In this document: piece by piece, positions 1,576 to 9,483 of the stretch
Position numbering within the stretch: position 1 is the stretch's first letter
Layout: each line of letters begins with the position of its first letter
From: Pirellulales bacterium
Lineage (GTDB): Bacteria > Planctomycetota > Planctomycetia > Pirellulales > JAEUIK01
Assembly: GCA_019745975.1 (NCBI GenBank)
Contig: JAIESQ010000019.1
Coordinates: forward strand, 62,001-126,000
Length of the DNA stretch: 64,000 nt
Direction of reading: 5' to 3'
The notes under the pieces: generated by a model
Told to the model about the DNA's origin: nothing
The model's database searches: none
What the model saw: only the letters and a program-made list of their open reading frames with translations
Translations under genes and position numbers: made by a program

Positions 1576-2118
1576 GTGGGACAAGAGGTACGCCGTCGAG
1601 TCGGCAGTTCAAACGATTCGCCGAAAGCCAAGGGTTTTTCTCAATGTAGCTTCGCAAGTGCTTGATATAGAGTGAGATAGCATGGTTCAGAAACGGCTGC
1701 TGTTCCGGCCGAATCATTTCGGTAAAAGCTAATCACGACGCCGCTGCTGGTCAGCAAGTGGAGCCTGGGGTTCGCGGCCTTCAACTTTTGTGCAAACCGC
1801 TGATGGAGTCCTTGATCGCGATTTGACCATCTGTTGACGCCCACCTGAGTCCTCCGCACTCATGGGCTGCCACAAGATTCTGACCGCAGAAATTCCAGAG
1901 CGTTGCAACGTAGGTTTCAATCGCTCGAAGGGGAATGCGCAACGTGCCAGCGCCACCTCGCCGGTAGACGGCTGCGCCGCCGACCCCGGAAGCAAAAAAA
2001 GGCCCCGAGATCGGTTGCTAATGGACGACCCGGCACAACAATTGCGACTCCTTTGCACCACCGTTAAGCGCGCACGCGGTAGCCCTCTCTTGGAGGCTTT
2101 TTCCAGCACTCGTTCAAA
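1576..2118. other. 540-bp stretch without a supported gene
   Basis: Short frames run on both strands, but none has a credible start with ribosome binding site or a recognisable family. A frame on the plus strand runs into the next gene, but that gene has its own Shine-Dalgarno and signal peptide start at 2132. The location between a tRNA and an accessory-looking cluster would suit an integration junction, yet no repeat of the tRNA 3' end and no integrase was seen in the following kilobases. Confidence 0.4.
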
Positions 2119-2131
2119 ATGGAGGTGTTCC

Positions 2132-2596
2132 ATGCGACTGTTTGCCCTAATGATCCTCGCGGCCGGGCTGATCCTCGCCGCCGCCGGCACCGCCGCCGCC
2201 GACCACCTGACCAAGGTTCCGGGAACCTGGGAGATGGTTTCCGGCGAACGGGACGGCAAGCCCCTGCCCAAGGAGGATGTCGAGCACGTCATGCTGATCT
2301 GCAAGGCGGAAGGGAACGCGATCAGGATCGTCGTGAAGAAGCACGACAAGGTCGTGACCGAGGCGACGGCCAAGCTCGCCAAGGCGGGCGACAAGCACGA
2401 CCAGTACGACATCACCTACTCCAAAGGCAGCGATGCTAAGGGTGAGAGCCTGAAGGGCAAGACTGTTCACGGCATCATCGCTGTGGAGGGCGACACCCTG
2501 AAGGCCTGTTGGCATGGGGAGGAAGGTTTCCCGAAGGAATTCACCGGGGCCAAAGGTTCCGGCTGTGCTCTCCGGACCTACAAGCGTGTCAAATGA
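2132..2596 (+). CDS. Secreted TIGR03067-type (lipocalin-like) protein, single domain
   Basis: A 154-residue protein with an N-terminal signal peptide (MRLFALMILAAGLILAAAG, cleavage near residue 24) and one TIGR03067-type domain beginning VPGTWEMVSGERDGKPLP. This domain is frequent in planctomycetes, is related in pattern to lipocalin-like beta barrels and has no established function. Two cysteines near the end (LKACWHGEEG and GSGCALRTYK) recur in the next protein of the cluster. The ATG at 2132 was chosen because GGAGG stands 7 bases before it and the signal peptide starts there. The gene opens the cluster that contains the MNIO enzyme. Export to the periplasm or cell surface is likely; substrate unknown. 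Confidence 0.8.
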   Translation: MRLFALMILAAGLILAAAGTAAADHLTKVPGTWEMVSGERDGKPLPKEDVEHVMLICKAEGNAIRIVVKKHDKVVTEATAKLAKAGDKHDQYDITYSKGSDAKGESLKGKTVHGIIAVEGDTLKACWHGEEGFPKEFTGAKGSGCALRTYKRVK

Positions 2597-2728
2597 GGAA
2601 ACACGGTGCCCGACGGTGGGAACCGAGTAGCCCGAGTCGTTCTGCCCGCAAGCCCGCCGAGCGTCGAGATGGTCCCGCCGTCGCGCCGGCTTGCGAACCC
2701 TCACCAAGACAAGAAAAGGAGTGTCCTC

Positions 2729-2863
2729 ATGACTCTCATCACCAAACCCGCGGCCAAGAAGAAGGCCGTTCGTGAGTTGAAGAACCTGCGCACGTCGGCC
2801 CAGGTGCGGAAGCTGGCCTTCTGCCACGGCTGTCACGCCGCTCTCCGTGGCCGGAGCAGGTGA
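2729..2863 (+). CDS. 44-residue basic peptide with C-terminal CHGCH, candidate modified peptide
   Basis: A short gene with a good ribosome binding site (AAAGGAG, 8 bases before the ATG). The first ~30 residues are rich in Lys, Arg, Ala and Leu and look helical, with no signal peptide. The end carries FCHGCHAALRG, two Cys and two His in five residues. Size, leader-like front and Cys/His tail are what one expects of a ribosomally made precursor acted on by a DUF692/MNIO enzyme, and such an enzyme lies 1.3 kb downstream on the same strand. It matches no precursor family I can name (not methanobactin, TglA or bufferin). Alternatively it could be a small zinc-binding protein or a chance frame. The precursor role is inference. 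Confidence 0.5.
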   Translation: MTLITKPAAKKKAVRELKNLRTSAQVRKLAFCHGCHAALRGRSR

Positions 2864-2903
2864 ATCCCGAAGGGCACGGACGCTGCGTCAACAAATCCCC
2901 ACG

Positions 2904-2927
2904 CCCCGGCCCGCTTCCGGGCCGGGG
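2904..2927 (+). terminator. Strong GC hairpin, terminator or attenuator candidate
   Basis: CCCCGGCCC (2904-2912) pairs fully with GGGCCGGGG (2919-2927) over a 6-nt loop. No T-run follows, so it is not a textbook intrinsic terminator. It sits between the 44-residue peptide gene and the large TIGR03067 gene and could set their relative expression or protect the upstream mRNA end, as is usual when a precursor must be made in excess. Confidence 0.4.
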
Positions 2928-2967
2928 CCAGTTGTAGCCCCGTACCTTCCTTGCGAGGAGGTGTTTT

Positions 2968-4182
2968 ATGCGGCTGTATGCCTTGATCTGCGCGGTCGGG
3001 TTGTTCGTCACGGCCATCGGCGCAACCCCCGATCACCTAGACGAAAGTGGGGGGACCTGGAAACTGGTCAAAGCCGAACGGGATGGCAAGCCCCTGCCCA
3101 AAGAGCAATTTGACCACGACATCACGCTGATCGTCACCAGGACCGAAGGAGGTGGGATCAAGTACGTCGCGAAGAAAAGCTACAACGTTGTAACCGAGGC
3201 GACGGTCCAGCAGCACAAGGCGGGTGACAAGTACGACCAGTGCGACGTCACCTTCAGCAAAGGCTGCAGCCAGGGGAAGACACTGCGCGGTATTCTCGGG
3301 GTGGAGGGGGACACCATGACGGCCTGCTGGCACCGGGGCCAAGGGTATCCTAAGGAGTTCACCGGGGCTAAGGATTTCGGTTGTACTCTGCGGATCCTCA
3401 AGCGGATTGCCGACAACGATCTGGCGAAGTTGGCGGGCACCTGGAACCTGATCGCCCTCGAACGCGACGGCAAGCCCGCGCCCAAGGATAAGGTCGCCGA
3501 CAAACTCGTGATCACCCGCATCTCGGGCGCAAAGAGCGCGTGTCACGTCCTGGTGATGGACCGCGGCAAGGTCCGTGCCGAGGCGACAATTCAGCCCACC
3601 GACGGCGCGAAGGACGAGAAGCACGACGGGCTCACGTACACGAGGTTCAACGTCACGTATAGCAAAGGCCGCCACGCGGGCACGACTCTTCACGCCAGTA
3701 TCCACGTGTACGGCGACGCCCTGAAGGCATTTTGGACCATACCGGACGAAGGGGGCGAGGAAGCCACGAAGACCTTTCATACCTTCCAGCGCGCCGACGA
3801 TGACCTGGCCCAGCTGCCGGGGACCTGGAAGCAGGTGTCCGCCGAGCGGGATGGCAAACCGCTGTCCAAGGAGGAGTTCGCCAAGTACCCCAATGTCCTC
3901 GTGATCACCCGCGTCAAGGGGCAGGAGGGCGAGTGCAAAGTCGTGATGAAAATGGGCGATGAGGTTGTGGCCGAGGCGATGCTGAAGCGCTCCGCGGGTG
4001 AAAAGGGCGCCAAGCACAACCACTACGAGGCCGCCTATTCCAAAGGCCGCCATGCGGGCACGACGCTGCACGCCACGATCGACGTGGACGGTGATACTCT
4101 GAAGGCCTGCTGGACCAAACCCGACGAAGGAGGCGACGGCGCCAGCAAGACCTGCCACACCTTACAGCGGGTCAAGCAGTGA
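2968..4182 (+). CDS. Secreted protein with three tandem TIGR03067-type domains
   Basis: A 404-residue protein with a signal peptide (MRLYALICAVGLFVTAIGA) followed by three homologous domains. They begin near residues 29 (GTWKLVKAERDGKPLP), 152 (LAGTWNLIALERDGKPAP) and 277 (LPGTWKQVSAERDGKPLS), each ~120 residues. Domains 1 and 3 keep the Cys pair seen in the single-domain protein upstream (MTACWHRG/FGCTL and LKACWTKP/KTCHTL); domain 1 has two more Cys (YDQCDVTFSKGC). The middle domain lacks the ACW cysteine (LKAFWTI). GAGGAGG precedes the ATG by 7 bases. The stop is directly followed by the MNIO gene, so both are co-transcribed. It may be a substrate or carrier of that enzyme. Function is unproven. 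Confidence 0.8.
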   Translation: MRLYALICAVGLFVTAIGATPDHLDESGGTWKLVKAERDGKPLPKEQFDHDITLIVTRTEGGGIKYVAKKSYNVVTEATVQQHKAGDKYDQCDVTFSKGCSQGKTLRGILGVEGDTMTACWHRGQGYPKEFTGAKDFGCTLRILKRIADNDLAKLAGTWNLIALERDGKPAPKDKVADKLVITRISGAKSACHVLVMDRGKVRAEATIQPTDGAKDEKHDGLTYTRFNVTYSKGRHAGTTLHASIHVYGDALKAFWTIPDEGGEEATKTFHTFQRADDDLAQLPGTWKQVSAERDGKPLSKEEFAKYPNVLVITRVKGQEGECKVVMKMGDEVVAEAMLKRSAGEKGAKHNHYEAAYSKGRHAGTTLHATIDVDGDTLKACWTKPDEGGDGASKTCHTLQRVKQ

Positions 4183-5082
4183 ATGATCCCCATGATCGGC
4201 GCCACGAAAACCGCGTTCGAGAAAGCAAAACCACGACCACTCTCCGAGACTCGAAGCGTGCCCGCGATCGGTTACGCGCTTTTTGAGGAGAACCGCCACG
4301 TCCTCGACGACCCGGCCCTGAATGCCGTCGAGATCACCTTTGAGCGCGCCGCCGACCCGTTGCGCCTGGGCCGCTGCCTCGGCGAGCTTGATTTCGCCTA
4401 CGTCAGCGTCCACGCGTTGCAGCTTTCGCCGGCCAGCCCCGACCCGCCGGCGCGTGCTTACCTCGATGCCCTGCGGGCGCTTGCCGAGGAGAACGGGGCG
4501 GCCGCGGTCAGCGACCACCTCGGGTTCACGCGCGATGGCACCGGCGGCGTCGAGATGGGTCACTTCACCCCGCCTCCGTTCACCGCCGCTGCCCTGGACG
4601 CCACCTGCCGAAACCTCGACCTCATCCAGGACTATTTCCGCGGCCGGCCCTTCTTCCTGGAAAACATCGCCTCCCTGTTCCACTTCCGCGGCACGATGAG
4701 CGAGGCCGAGTTCTTGACCTGCGTGCTCCAGAGGACCGGCTGCGGCTGGCTGCTGGATGTCACGAACCTGTACGCCAACGCCCGCAATCACGGGTACGAC
4801 GCCTCCGAGTTCCTGCGCCGGGTGGTGCCCGCCGCCCGCCGCCTCCAGATGCACCTGTCGGGCGGCTTCTTCGACGCCGAGGCCGGCCTGTATATCGATA
4901 GCCATTCCCGGGCCGTTCCCGAGGAGGTTTGGGCCCTGTACCGCCAGGCTCTGGAACTGGGACGGGGGAAAGTGGCGGCGGTCTTCATCGAGCGCGACCA
5001 GGACTTCCCCGACGAGGCCGGCTGGCGTGCCGAGGTCCGCAAGGCCCGGCGGATTGCCGAAGAGACGGAGGTCAGAGCATGA
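4183..5082 (+). CDS. DUF692-family multinuclear non-haem iron oxidative enzyme (MNIO)
   Basis: A 299-residue TIM-barrel enzyme of the MbnB/TglH/BufB type. The family uses two or three irons to oxidise Cys or other residues in ribosomal peptides. The metal-binding set is present: H77 (VSVHALQLS), D111-H112 (SDHLGF), E160-N161 (FFLENIA), D192 (LLDVTNLYANARNHG), H224 (QMHLSGG), D239 and H241 (DSHSRAVPEEVW), and E270-R271-D272 (FIERDQDFP). Length is normal. It starts immediately after the stop of the triple TIGR03067 gene and overlaps the next gene by 4 bp (ATGA), so the partner below is translationally coupled. Family assignment is firm; the substrate is inferred from the neighbours. Confidence 0.93.
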   Translation: MIPMIGATKTAFEKAKPRPLSETRSVPAIGYALFEENRHVLDDPALNAVEITFERAADPLRLGRCLGELDFAYVSVHALQLSPASPDPPARAYLDALRALAEENGAAAVSDHLGFTRDGTGGVEMGHFTPPPFTAAALDATCRNLDLIQDYFRGRPFFLENIASLFHFRGTMSEAEFLTCVLQRTGCGWLLDVTNLYANARNHGYDASEFLRRVVPAARRLQMHLSGGFFDAEAGLYIDSHSRAVPEEVWALYRQALELGRGKVAAVFIERDQDFPDEAGWRAEVRKARRIAEETEVRA

Positions 5083-5837
5083 CTGATCTAACTGAGCCAG
5101 AATCACCTTACGCCGAACAGCTCCGCCGCTATGCGCGGGCCCTGGCGGCGGGCCGCGCCGACGACGTGAGCGCCGCCCTGGCCGAAGGCTCGTCGCCCGC
5201 CCACGTGATGCTGTTCACCGAGGGCAACCGCGCGAAACGGCACGAAAAGCTCCGGGCACAACTGGAGTTCGTGGCCGTGGCCTTTACCGGCTTCGAGAAC
5301 CTATTGGCGGCCTACCTCCGCGACCGACCGCCGGCCGCCTCTGACACGGGCGCCGGCGACGCGGACCGGTTCCTGGAGTGGCTGGGGAAGACCTGCGGCC
5401 TGACGCCCGAGCAGCACGACTACGTCGCGTGCCAGCGGGCGCGGCACGCTGTAGAGGCAGAGGCCTTCAGAAATCGCGCCGGTCACGTGCGCTTCCAGGA
5501 ACTCTGGGCCACGGCGCAGCGGCGGGCGGCTGCTCTGGACACGGACGCCGGCCTGCGGGTGCATCTGAACCCGATCCGCGCCTGGTCGCGGTTCGCCACC
5601 GCGGCACTACTGCATACCGAAAGGGTACTGCCGGCCGACGTGCTCTTTTTCGCGGTCGGGACCGAGATCTGCACGGCCGTACTAGAGCCTAAAGGCCGGG
5701 AACGGATCGAAGAGTTGGCCTCCTACGGCCCTTGCACGCTGAATCAATGGGCGGGACGGACCAGGCACGCCGACGGGGGAGAACTCGTTGAACTCTGCCG
5801 CGACCTGGCCGAGATGGGGCTCGTGGCGTTCAGTTAG
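5079..5837 (+). CDS. Putative MNIO partner protein
   Basis: A 252-residue soluble protein whose ATG overlaps the MNIO stop codon. MNIO enzymes nearly always work with a partner that binds the precursor (MbnC, TglI or BufC/DUF2063 type), and the position here is exactly where that partner is encoded. The N-terminal ~170 residues are helical and charged; a conserved-looking centre reads HLNPIRAWSRFATAALL. The last ~80 residues (FFAVGTEICTAVLEPKGRE to LCRDLAEMGLVAFS) have the length and pattern of a winged-helix or RRE-like peptide-binding domain. I do not recognise the family by sequence; the role comes from context. Confidence 0.6.
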   Translation: MTDLTEPESPYAEQLRRYARALAAGRADDVSAALAEGSSPAHVMLFTEGNRAKRHEKLRAQLEFVAVAFTGFENLLAAYLRDRPPAASDTGAGDADRFLEWLGKTCGLTPEQHDYVACQRARHAVEAEAFRNRAGHVRFQELWATAQRRAAALDTDAGLRVHLNPIRAWSRFATAALLHTERVLPADVLFFAVGTEICTAVLEPKGRERIEELASYGPCTLNQWAGRTRHADGGELVELCRDLAEMGLVAFS

Positions 5838-5894
5838 GCGGGCCTCAAGCATACGCGGGGTGCCGGAATTAGCGGGGGGAAGTTTCCAACGGCG

Positions 5895-7566: not shown

Positions 7567-9483
7567 CTATTGAAAATCCTCGCCAAACAATGCGTCGTCC
7601 AGTTCTTTGGCTTGCACGTATTGTTCCTGGGCTTCGAGGAGCGTATCGCCCAACGCCGCAAACGACTGTTCGAGTTCGGTGTCGTCGCGCGAGCGGAGCC
7701 AGAGATTCAGCACCAGCGACTCGAACTGATCGCCATCCTCCAGGTTGCCCAGGATCGAGCCGACCTCGCCCACCACCAATTCAAACATCCGAATCTTCTC
7801 GTTGAGCACGTTCAGAATGCGTTCCTCCAGCGAGTTGGCGGTGCAGAGGTTGAAAACGAATACCTCGTGAGTCTGGCCGTAGCGATGAATGCGACCGATC
7901 CGTTGTTCGATTTTCATCGGGTTCCAAGGAAGGTCAAAATTGATCAGTGTATCGGCGAATTGCAGATTGCGTCCCTCGCCCCCCGATTCGGTACAGAGCA
8001 TGATCGGGACTTGTTCGCGAAAGGCCGTCACGGCTTCATCCTTTTCGAGAGCCGATTGCTCGCCGGAAAAGACCGAGAAGGCTAACCCTTGCGTGCGGAG
8101 TAGTTCGACCAGGTGCGTCATGGTACGGCGAAAATTCACGAAGATCAGCACCTTATGCTGGTGCGATGACTGGATCAATTCGAGCAAGCGCACGTCTTTG
8201 GCCGAGTGGTCAATCGAGGCCCCCAGACGCGCCAGCGCGGCCGCCTCGGAATCGGCGGAAGCAAGTCGCTCGAGCGCCGCCGCCGCGGTCATCGGGTGAC
8301 TCCCTGACGCCGCGAGCAAGCTGCTCAACTGCATTCGTGCCATCATGGCCGACTGGCCCACAACCGACACGTCGAGCTCGGCGCTTTGATCTGTCGTATT
8401 CGAATTATTCGTGGCCGCTTCGTCGGCTGGCGCGAGATTGTGGTGCGACCTGACCCCACGGCTGCGCAAGAATTGCGCCAGGCGCCGATAGAATTCGGCC
8501 TCGATCCCCATGGGGTTGGCCAGCACGGTTTGTGCATAACGCGGCGGTAGATCGAGTTGCACCAGGCTCCGCGTGTTGCGGACCATCACTTCGCCCAACA
8601 ACGATCGCAAACGTTGGCGGTTGAGTGCGTCACGTGGATTGCCCCGTTTGACATACTGCCGCTTGAAATCGGCCTCGGTCCGCAAATGGCCCGGAGCCAA
8701 CAGCGTGAGCAGGTTGTAGAGCTCAATCAGGTTATTCTGCACGGGTGTTGCCGAGAGCAGAAACATGTACCGCCGTTGCAGTGAATTGACGAGTTGCCAG
8801 TTCAGCGTGGCGCGGTTCTTGCAGTGATGAGCTTCATCGACGATCACCAGATCCCAGGCCTGTGCAGACACGTGCGCCGCACGCTTCTTATGCTTCACGA
8901 ATGGCAGCGATGCCAAGATGCGATCGTGCTGCCGCCAGAAGTCCGCGCGATCGGCCGCGACGCCACTGGGTGGCATGGAGAACGACAGGTCAAACTTGCT
9001 GCTCAATTCCTCGTGCCACTGCGAAACTAACGACGCGGGCGTGAGGATTAACACGCGACGCGCCATACCGCGCAGCAGGTATTCGCGGAGCAACAGACAG
9101 GCCTCGATCGTTTTTCCGAGGCCGACTTCGTCGGCCAGCAACACCCGGCCGCGAAAGTGCCGCAATACTCTGCGAACTGTGTCGATCTGATGCGGCAAGT
9201 GCTCGACGCCCCGCAGGCCTTCCAGGCACAGTAGCTCATCGAAGCCGCGGAGCAGGCTCAGCCGGGCATGTTCTTGATGTAGCCACAGGTCGCGCTGCCC
9301 CGCGCCGCCGCGACTCGGCGGCAGTGGTTCGGCACGGAAGATAACAGGAATTCCACCAGGAGTGATCCAACGATCCGCGTACGGTTCGACTGCGTCGGCA
9401 GACGAGATGCCGGCTAAACTGCTTACGCGTCCTTGCGAAACCTGCGGGGGCATGGAGTCCATTCTCTCGGGTAGCCGCTGCAA
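7567..9483 (-). CDS. SNF2/RapA-like DEAH helicase
   Basis: A 638-residue SF2 ATPase of the SNF2/HepA type. Motif I is DEVGLGKT (118-125), motif II DEAHHC (216-221), motif III SATPVQNN (~244). The C-terminal RecA domain has ESGGEGRNLQ (~508) and the arginine-finger motif QRIGRIHRYGQ (~535). It lacks the long N- and C-terminal domains of E. coli RapA. Such proteins translocate on double-stranded DNA and remodel protein-DNA complexes. Three ATGs are possible at the front (9483, 9462, 9453); the helicase core is unaffected by the choice. It forms an operon with the zinc-ribbon protein downstream. Confidence 0.9.
   Translation of the reverse strand: MQRLPERMDSMPPQVSQGRVSSLAGISSADAVEPYADRWITPGGIPVIFRAEPLPPSRGGAGQRDLWLHQEHARLSLLRGFDELLCLEGLRGVEHLPHQIDTVRRVLRHFRGRVLLADEVGLGKTIEACLLLREYLLRGMARRVLILTPASLVSQWHEELSSKFDLSFSMPPSGVAADRADFWRQHDRILASLPFVKHKKRAAHVSAQAWDLVIVDEAHHCKNRATLNWQLVNSLQRRYMFLLSATPVQNNLIELYNLLTLLAPGHLRTEADFKRQYVKRGNPRDALNRQRLRSLLGEVMVRNTRSLVQLDLPPRYAQTVLANPMGIEAEFYRRLAQFLRSRGVRSHHNLAPADEAATNNSNTTDQSAELDVSVVGQSAMMARMQLSSLLAASGSHPMTAAAALERLASADSEAAALARLGASIDHSAKDVRLLELIQSSHQHKVLIFVNFRRTMTHLVELLRTQGLAFSVFSGEQSALEKDEAVTAFREQVPIMLCTESGGEGRNLQFADTLINFDLPWNPMKIEQRIGRIHRYGQTHEVFVFNLCTANSLEERILNVLNEKIRMFELVVGEVGSILGNLEDGDQFESLVLNLWLRSRDDTELEQSFAALGDTLLEAQEQYVQAKELDDALFGEDFQ

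Follow-up and report, generated by a model that had tools for sequence, protein, structure and literature searches.

Which product of a five-gene planctomycete cassette is the substrate of its MNIO enzyme? The modifications that MNIO enzymes make to peptides are unusual, and the discovery of new products is limited by the supply of precursor families; planctomycetes are, to our knowledge, otherwise poor in characterised RiPPs. The cassette lies in a 64,000-nucleotide stretch of a Pirellulales genome, here called the window, for which a sequence-only reading had described a block of two TIGR03067 proteins, a CHGCH peptide, a complete MNIO and an ATGA-coupled partner. All of these genes were found on the forward strand at 2132-5837, with the claimed spacing at the MNIO gene of 0 bp upstream and -4 bp downstream (Table 1). 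We consider it likely that the cassette is an MNIO-type RiPP cluster, in which a 44-aa precursor would be presented by the partner and modified by the MNIO, with barrel-shaped TIGR03067 proteins binding the product. Its product is probably a small, enzyme-modified Cys/His peptide, one of a family of such peptides in planctomycetes.

Table 1. Genes and conserved limits of the MNIO cassette (window coordinates).
Feature	Position	Strand	Evidence
TIGR03067 protein, single-domain, 154 aa	2132-2596	+	NCBIfam 49.0 bits, cut-off 40.15
44-aa precursor peptide (putative), MTLITKPAAKKKAVRELKNLRTSAQVRKLAFCHGCHAALRGRSR	2729-2863	+	ORF; G040 conservation, leader-family alignment, Shine-Dalgarno aaggag
Triple TIGR03067 protein, 404 aa, three stretches	2968-4182	+	NCBIfam 80.5 bits, cut-off 40.15
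MNIO (DUF692/PF05114), 299 aa	4183-5082	+	PF05114 193 bits, cut-off 25
MNIO partner, 252 aa, helical domain and RRE-like C-terminal domain (predicted)	5079-5837	+	AF2 model, PDB fold matches
Conserved cassette extent	2113-5848	+	DNA similarity limits vs G040 (blastn)

The start of the MNIO gene adjoins the stop codon of the triple TIGR03067 gene, and the partner start overlaps the MNIO stop (ATGA). A Shine-Dalgarno-like sequence was seen ahead of both TIGR03067 genes, of the peptide gene and of the partner gene, but not 5' of the MNIO gene, which abuts the preceding stop codon. Because all four TIGR03067 matches of the 7-Mb genome and all three of a second genome, G040, fall in the cassette, the block is not a chance arrangement. 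No LanM match was obtained for any of the five products, which places the cassette outside the class II lanthipeptides, and no exporter was recognised among them. A tRNA-Pro gene is located at 1449-1524, about 600 bp 5' of the cassette, and no exact 13-base direct or inverted repeats linking the two flanks were found. On the reverse strand at 7567-9483, a SNF2-type helicase gene has DISARM DrmD and RapA as its best matches, far under the equivalog cut-offs, and is possibly a remnant or relative of a defence system.

The identical gene order was found in G040 (JACPPG01), a genome from another family of the same order, as a single-domain TIGR03067 protein, a 46-aa peptide, a TIGR03067 protein with two domains (the counterpart of the triple protein), an MNIO and a partner. 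The two MNIOs are about 80% identical, the TIGR03067-MNIO spacing in G040 is -4 bp, and the DNA of the two genomes is 68-80% identical across the conserved extent, with zero similarity in the flanks. The peptide counterpart (L035:8193-8333) retains an identical KLAFCHGCHA core, with a dN/dS of 0.43. The recurrence of TIGR03067 next to DUF692 across planctomycetes, proposed earlier as a check, was thus seen once, in one other genome, and lineage-wide synteny was rejected on the grounds that only two genomes show the arrangement. Outside these two, no TIGR03067 gene beside an MNIO was present among the matches listed, and no relatives were found on viral contigs. We found no earlier report of a TIGR03067-MNIO linkage, and the family name was not matched in the searched literature. 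Close relatives of the cassette TIGR03067 subtype occur in the window genome and G040 only (397 genomes of the order), and the family as a whole in 105 of 197 related genomes.

What, then, do the TIGR03067 proteins do? Both exceed the curated cut-off of the family, and both carry a signal-like hydrophobic N-terminal segment, signal peptides being assessed by hydrophobicity only. The AF2 model of the single-domain protein (pLDDT 91.7) is a calycin-type barrel, resembling fatty-acid, retinol and bile-acid binding barrels in Foldseek, a marginal likeness (best E 6e-4, TM about 0.5). The genes could be hitch-hikers in a mobile cassette, with no role in the peptide pathway. Such passengers would explain why TIGR03067 occurs at only 2 of 29 clade loci and why the family is MNIO-free in many relatives, and the loss of similarity beyond the cassette limits suggests that the genes moved together. 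However, their order with the MNIO is kept in two families of the order, with a coupled or overlapping start; the single-domain gene is under purifying selection (dN/dS 0.28), and neither genome has a further TIGR03067 copy, so that we regard hitch-hiking as rather unlikely. As neither genome has TIGR03067 genes outside the cassette, these proteins plausibly have a functional tie to it, perhaps by binding the product. The reading that we favour is that they are exported accessories, more likely helpers than substrate.

The properties of the enzyme and its partner bear on the choice of substrate. The MNIO clade is supported at 98/97 in the tree, apart from other planctomycete MNIOs; the window and G040 enzymes group together in it (100/99), and the clade also contains a nested lanthipeptide-type group. 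The site-3 iron ligands of HvfB, N175/D242/H244 (PMC13419390), correspond via the 3bww alignment to N195, D239 and H241 of the window MNIO, assuming that the HvfB and 3bww numbering agree, and these columns are invariant in the MNIO alignment. The best curated NCBIfam match is BufB, at 162.4 bits, below its equivalog cut-off of 310; the MbnB equivalog score is 35.8 bits, below 325. The partner has no Pfam or NCBIfam match, hence no DUF2063 signature. Fold comparison of its AF2 model (pLDDT 88.9) places TglI (8hi7/8hci) and NGO1945 (3dee) at the top of the PDB matches, so that by predicted fold and the missing DUF2063 signature it is a PME-type 2 partner. Partners of this type are associated with precursors lacking signal peptides (PMC12452194), which favours the 44-aa peptide, whose N terminus is not hydrophobic by the same hydrophobicity-based judgement, over the TIGR03067 proteins as substrate.

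The sequence-only reading had named either the TIGR03067 proteins or the small peptide as substrate, and only the second half of this proposal stands. Were the TIGR03067 proteins modified by the MNIO, cysteines of the folded exported domain would be oxidised before export. Their genes are translationally close to the MNIO gene in both genomes and encode cysteines, the cassette holds every TIGR03067 gene of either genome, and long protein-like precursors have been reported for some MNIOs (PMC12452194). Against this, TIGR03067 is absent from the other 27 of the 29 clade loci, most of which have short precursors, and the partner type predicts a signal-less substrate. The cysteines, moreover, differ between domains. 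Among the seven TIGR03067 domains of the two cassettes, two cysteines are jointly present or jointly absent: the triple protein lacks both in domain 2, and the G040 double protein lacks both in its first domain. This pairing, over few domains, resembles that of a structural disulfide. Given the absence from 27 loci, the exported appearance, the FABP/lipocalin-like barrel fold and a family spread over so many relatives, the TIGR03067 proteins are an improbable substrate, and we rejected this as the main reading because of their limited recurrence, their likely export and the pattern of their cysteines.

The 44-aa peptide, by contrast with the TIGR03067 proteins, has relatives beside the MNIO at most loci of the clade. 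A scan for the MNIO clade over 84,980 species genomes returned 27 loci, all in Planctomycetota. A precursor was found upstream of the related MNIO at 21 of 29 loci, with MTTLSKTKKAIRELTELRTDDSLKKSAERHRCCRCCRCCRGGR, ...TVREVTKLRSGQGQPAARCCRYCRSCRSCYSCRSCRSCRSCRSCGCH and ...SVREIMAFHAADNDGLERCGRLERCGR... as examples just upstream of it. Behind a shared leader, KK[AV]VREL..LRTS, the family has a core that is rich in cysteine and variable, in most cases (CCR)n; repetitive cores of the clade include CCRCCRCC, CRSCRSC and ERCGRLERCGR. The window peptide (...KKAVRELKNLRTSAQVRKLAFCHGCHAALRGRSR) aligns with its relatives across the leader, in an alignment that took in 12 further precursors besides that of G040. 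It carries the defining leader [VI]RE[LIV]..LR[TS] and, after it, a core with cysteines, its own leader being KKAVRELKNLRTS and its putative core lying around AFCHGCHA. A short Cys-rich ORF with the leader motif was present within 500 nt upstream of the MNIO at 18 of 29 clade loci and in 0 of 17,660 random windows, a comparison that measures specificity rather than independent discovery since the motif was defined on the same loci. In the window, L045 and L058, the ORF with leader and cysteines lies farther than 500 nt upstream. Since ten (CCR)n loci are close relatives in one tight tree group, the 21 loci represent only some ten independent lineages. At four clade loci the MNIO has no adjacent precursor; none was found locally at L060-L063, and the genome of L062 (G450) carries one in trans. 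In G172 (L036/L060), neither precursor nor partner was detected anywhere in the assembly, and its clade MNIO is possibly a relic or a solo enzyme.

A precursor profile was also run over 392 planctomycetotal genomes, independently of MNIO position. Matches with E<1e-10 were obtained in G000, G083, G450, G459 and G507 only, and these five are the genomes carrying close clade MNIOs; a sixth genome has a 41% MNIO relative and no precursor. The match to the window peptide in its own genome has an E of 1.1e-11, the window row itself being part of the profile. The chance of such a coincidence is about 1e-11 for the five genomes, an optimistic value because three of them supplied profile sequences, and about 1e-4 for G450 and G459, which supplied none. 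In the latter two, precursor and MNIO lie on separate contigs, and precursors can therefore act in trans. Two weak matches elsewhere (E 0.002 and 0.009) cover mainly the core and were taken as chance. The recurrence of the leader beside or in trans to the MNIO clade supports the 44-aa peptide as the substrate. That the ORF is spurious, or encodes an unrelated small metal-binding protein, is suggested by its shortness and by a core unlike that of most family members, but is extremely improbable given its Shine-Dalgarno sequence, its conservation in G040, the leader family and the genome-wide co-occurrence.

How far does this system differ from those already described? Like the bufferins (BufA/BufB/BufC, PME-type 1 partner), the cassette has an MNIO and an RRE-containing partner adjoining a Cys-containing precursor. 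However, bufferins combine a Sec-signal precursor with a DUF2063 partner, and here the partner lacks DUF2063, the precursor has no signal-like N terminus, and leader and core are different. The TglH/TglI system (3-thiaglutamate/pearlin) shares the PME-type 2 partner, closest in fold to TglI, and the signal-less precursor, but, by gene content, no other pearlin genes were recognised in the cassette. With methanobactin MbnB/MbnC it would share an MNIO and partner acting on cysteines of a short peptide, and possibly metal chelation; unlike there, the MbnB cut-off is not reached and no MbnA-like peptide was recognised. Oxazolins and Buf_EGKCG peptides resemble the relatives with (CCR)n cores in having repeated short Cys motifs in the precursor, but they carry Sec signals, go with partners of the DUF2063 type (PMC12452194), and are unlike the (CCR)n family in motif and leader. 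The tested precursors match no NCBIfam or Pfam model. No mention of VREL/CCR precursors was found in the searched paper texts, although the supplement of PMC12452194 may still list them, and no MNIO or RiPP paper was among the matches listed for the string CCRCCR. Both the class of the enzyme and the fold of the partner have been described before, and the precursor family, absent from every library and paper text that could be searched, is new. The earlier claim of a new peptide-modifying pathway is reasonable in this sense: the precursor family is new, and the pathway is a variant within a known enzyme class.

In the pathway that we propose for the 44-aa peptide, the partner would bind the leader KKAVRELKNLRTS through its RRE-like domain and present the Cys/His core AFCHGCHA to the iron centre of the MNIO. 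The enzyme would then oxidise one or both cysteines of CHGCH, with a heterocycle or a group of the thioamide type as the likeliest outcome; as this core is strongly unlike the (CCR)n cores, the chemistry may differ from that of the relatives. The finished peptide would probably bind metal and serve outside the cytoplasm. The TIGR03067 barrels, presumably exported and added to the cassette in this lineage, would be likelier to bind or hold the product there than to be substrates. The fullest version, a Cys/His metallophore modified by the MNIO and served by its own secreted FABP/lipocalin-like TIGR03067 carriers, within a wider and so far unrecognised planctomycete family of (CCR)n RiPPs, is one that we offer tentatively. 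The cassette may give planctomycetes a metal-handling peptide, and this would, if true, be the first role assigned to TIGR03067 domains. With a recognisable leader, repetitive Cys cores, minimal two-enzyme clusters and some precursors in trans, the clade is directly testable in E. coli.

Additional observations concern related loci. A membrane protein of about 312-337 aa is encoded downstream of the partner at L047, L048, L053, L054, L055, L059, L069 and L070; that of L053 matches PF13748 (ABC_membrane_3, E 3e-53) and has no ATPase domain. It is a candidate exporter of (CCR)n peptides and is not present in the window cassette. Another MNIO of the window's own genome shares 57% identity with that of the cassette and likewise has a partner (L004:8068-12698, contig C124). 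A mersacidin/lichenicidin-type precursor (TIGR03898) ending in GKLALAGCSGCHGSRVCARVFLG lies 3' of that partner, and a LanM assigns this sister locus to the class II lanthipeptides; the LanM matches positions 2-684 of 932 only, with no LanC cyclase domain detected. Similar hybrids of an MNIO and a dehydratase-only LanM occur at L038/L067, L039/L068, L040 and L066, some with a C39 exporter. CusA/CzcA-family heavy-metal RND efflux genes are located directly 5' of the sister MNIO-LanM cluster (L004:3218-7884), near the MNIO-LanM cluster of L040 (L040:1016-5986) and near the sister-type MNIO locus of G006, which hints at a metal-related role.
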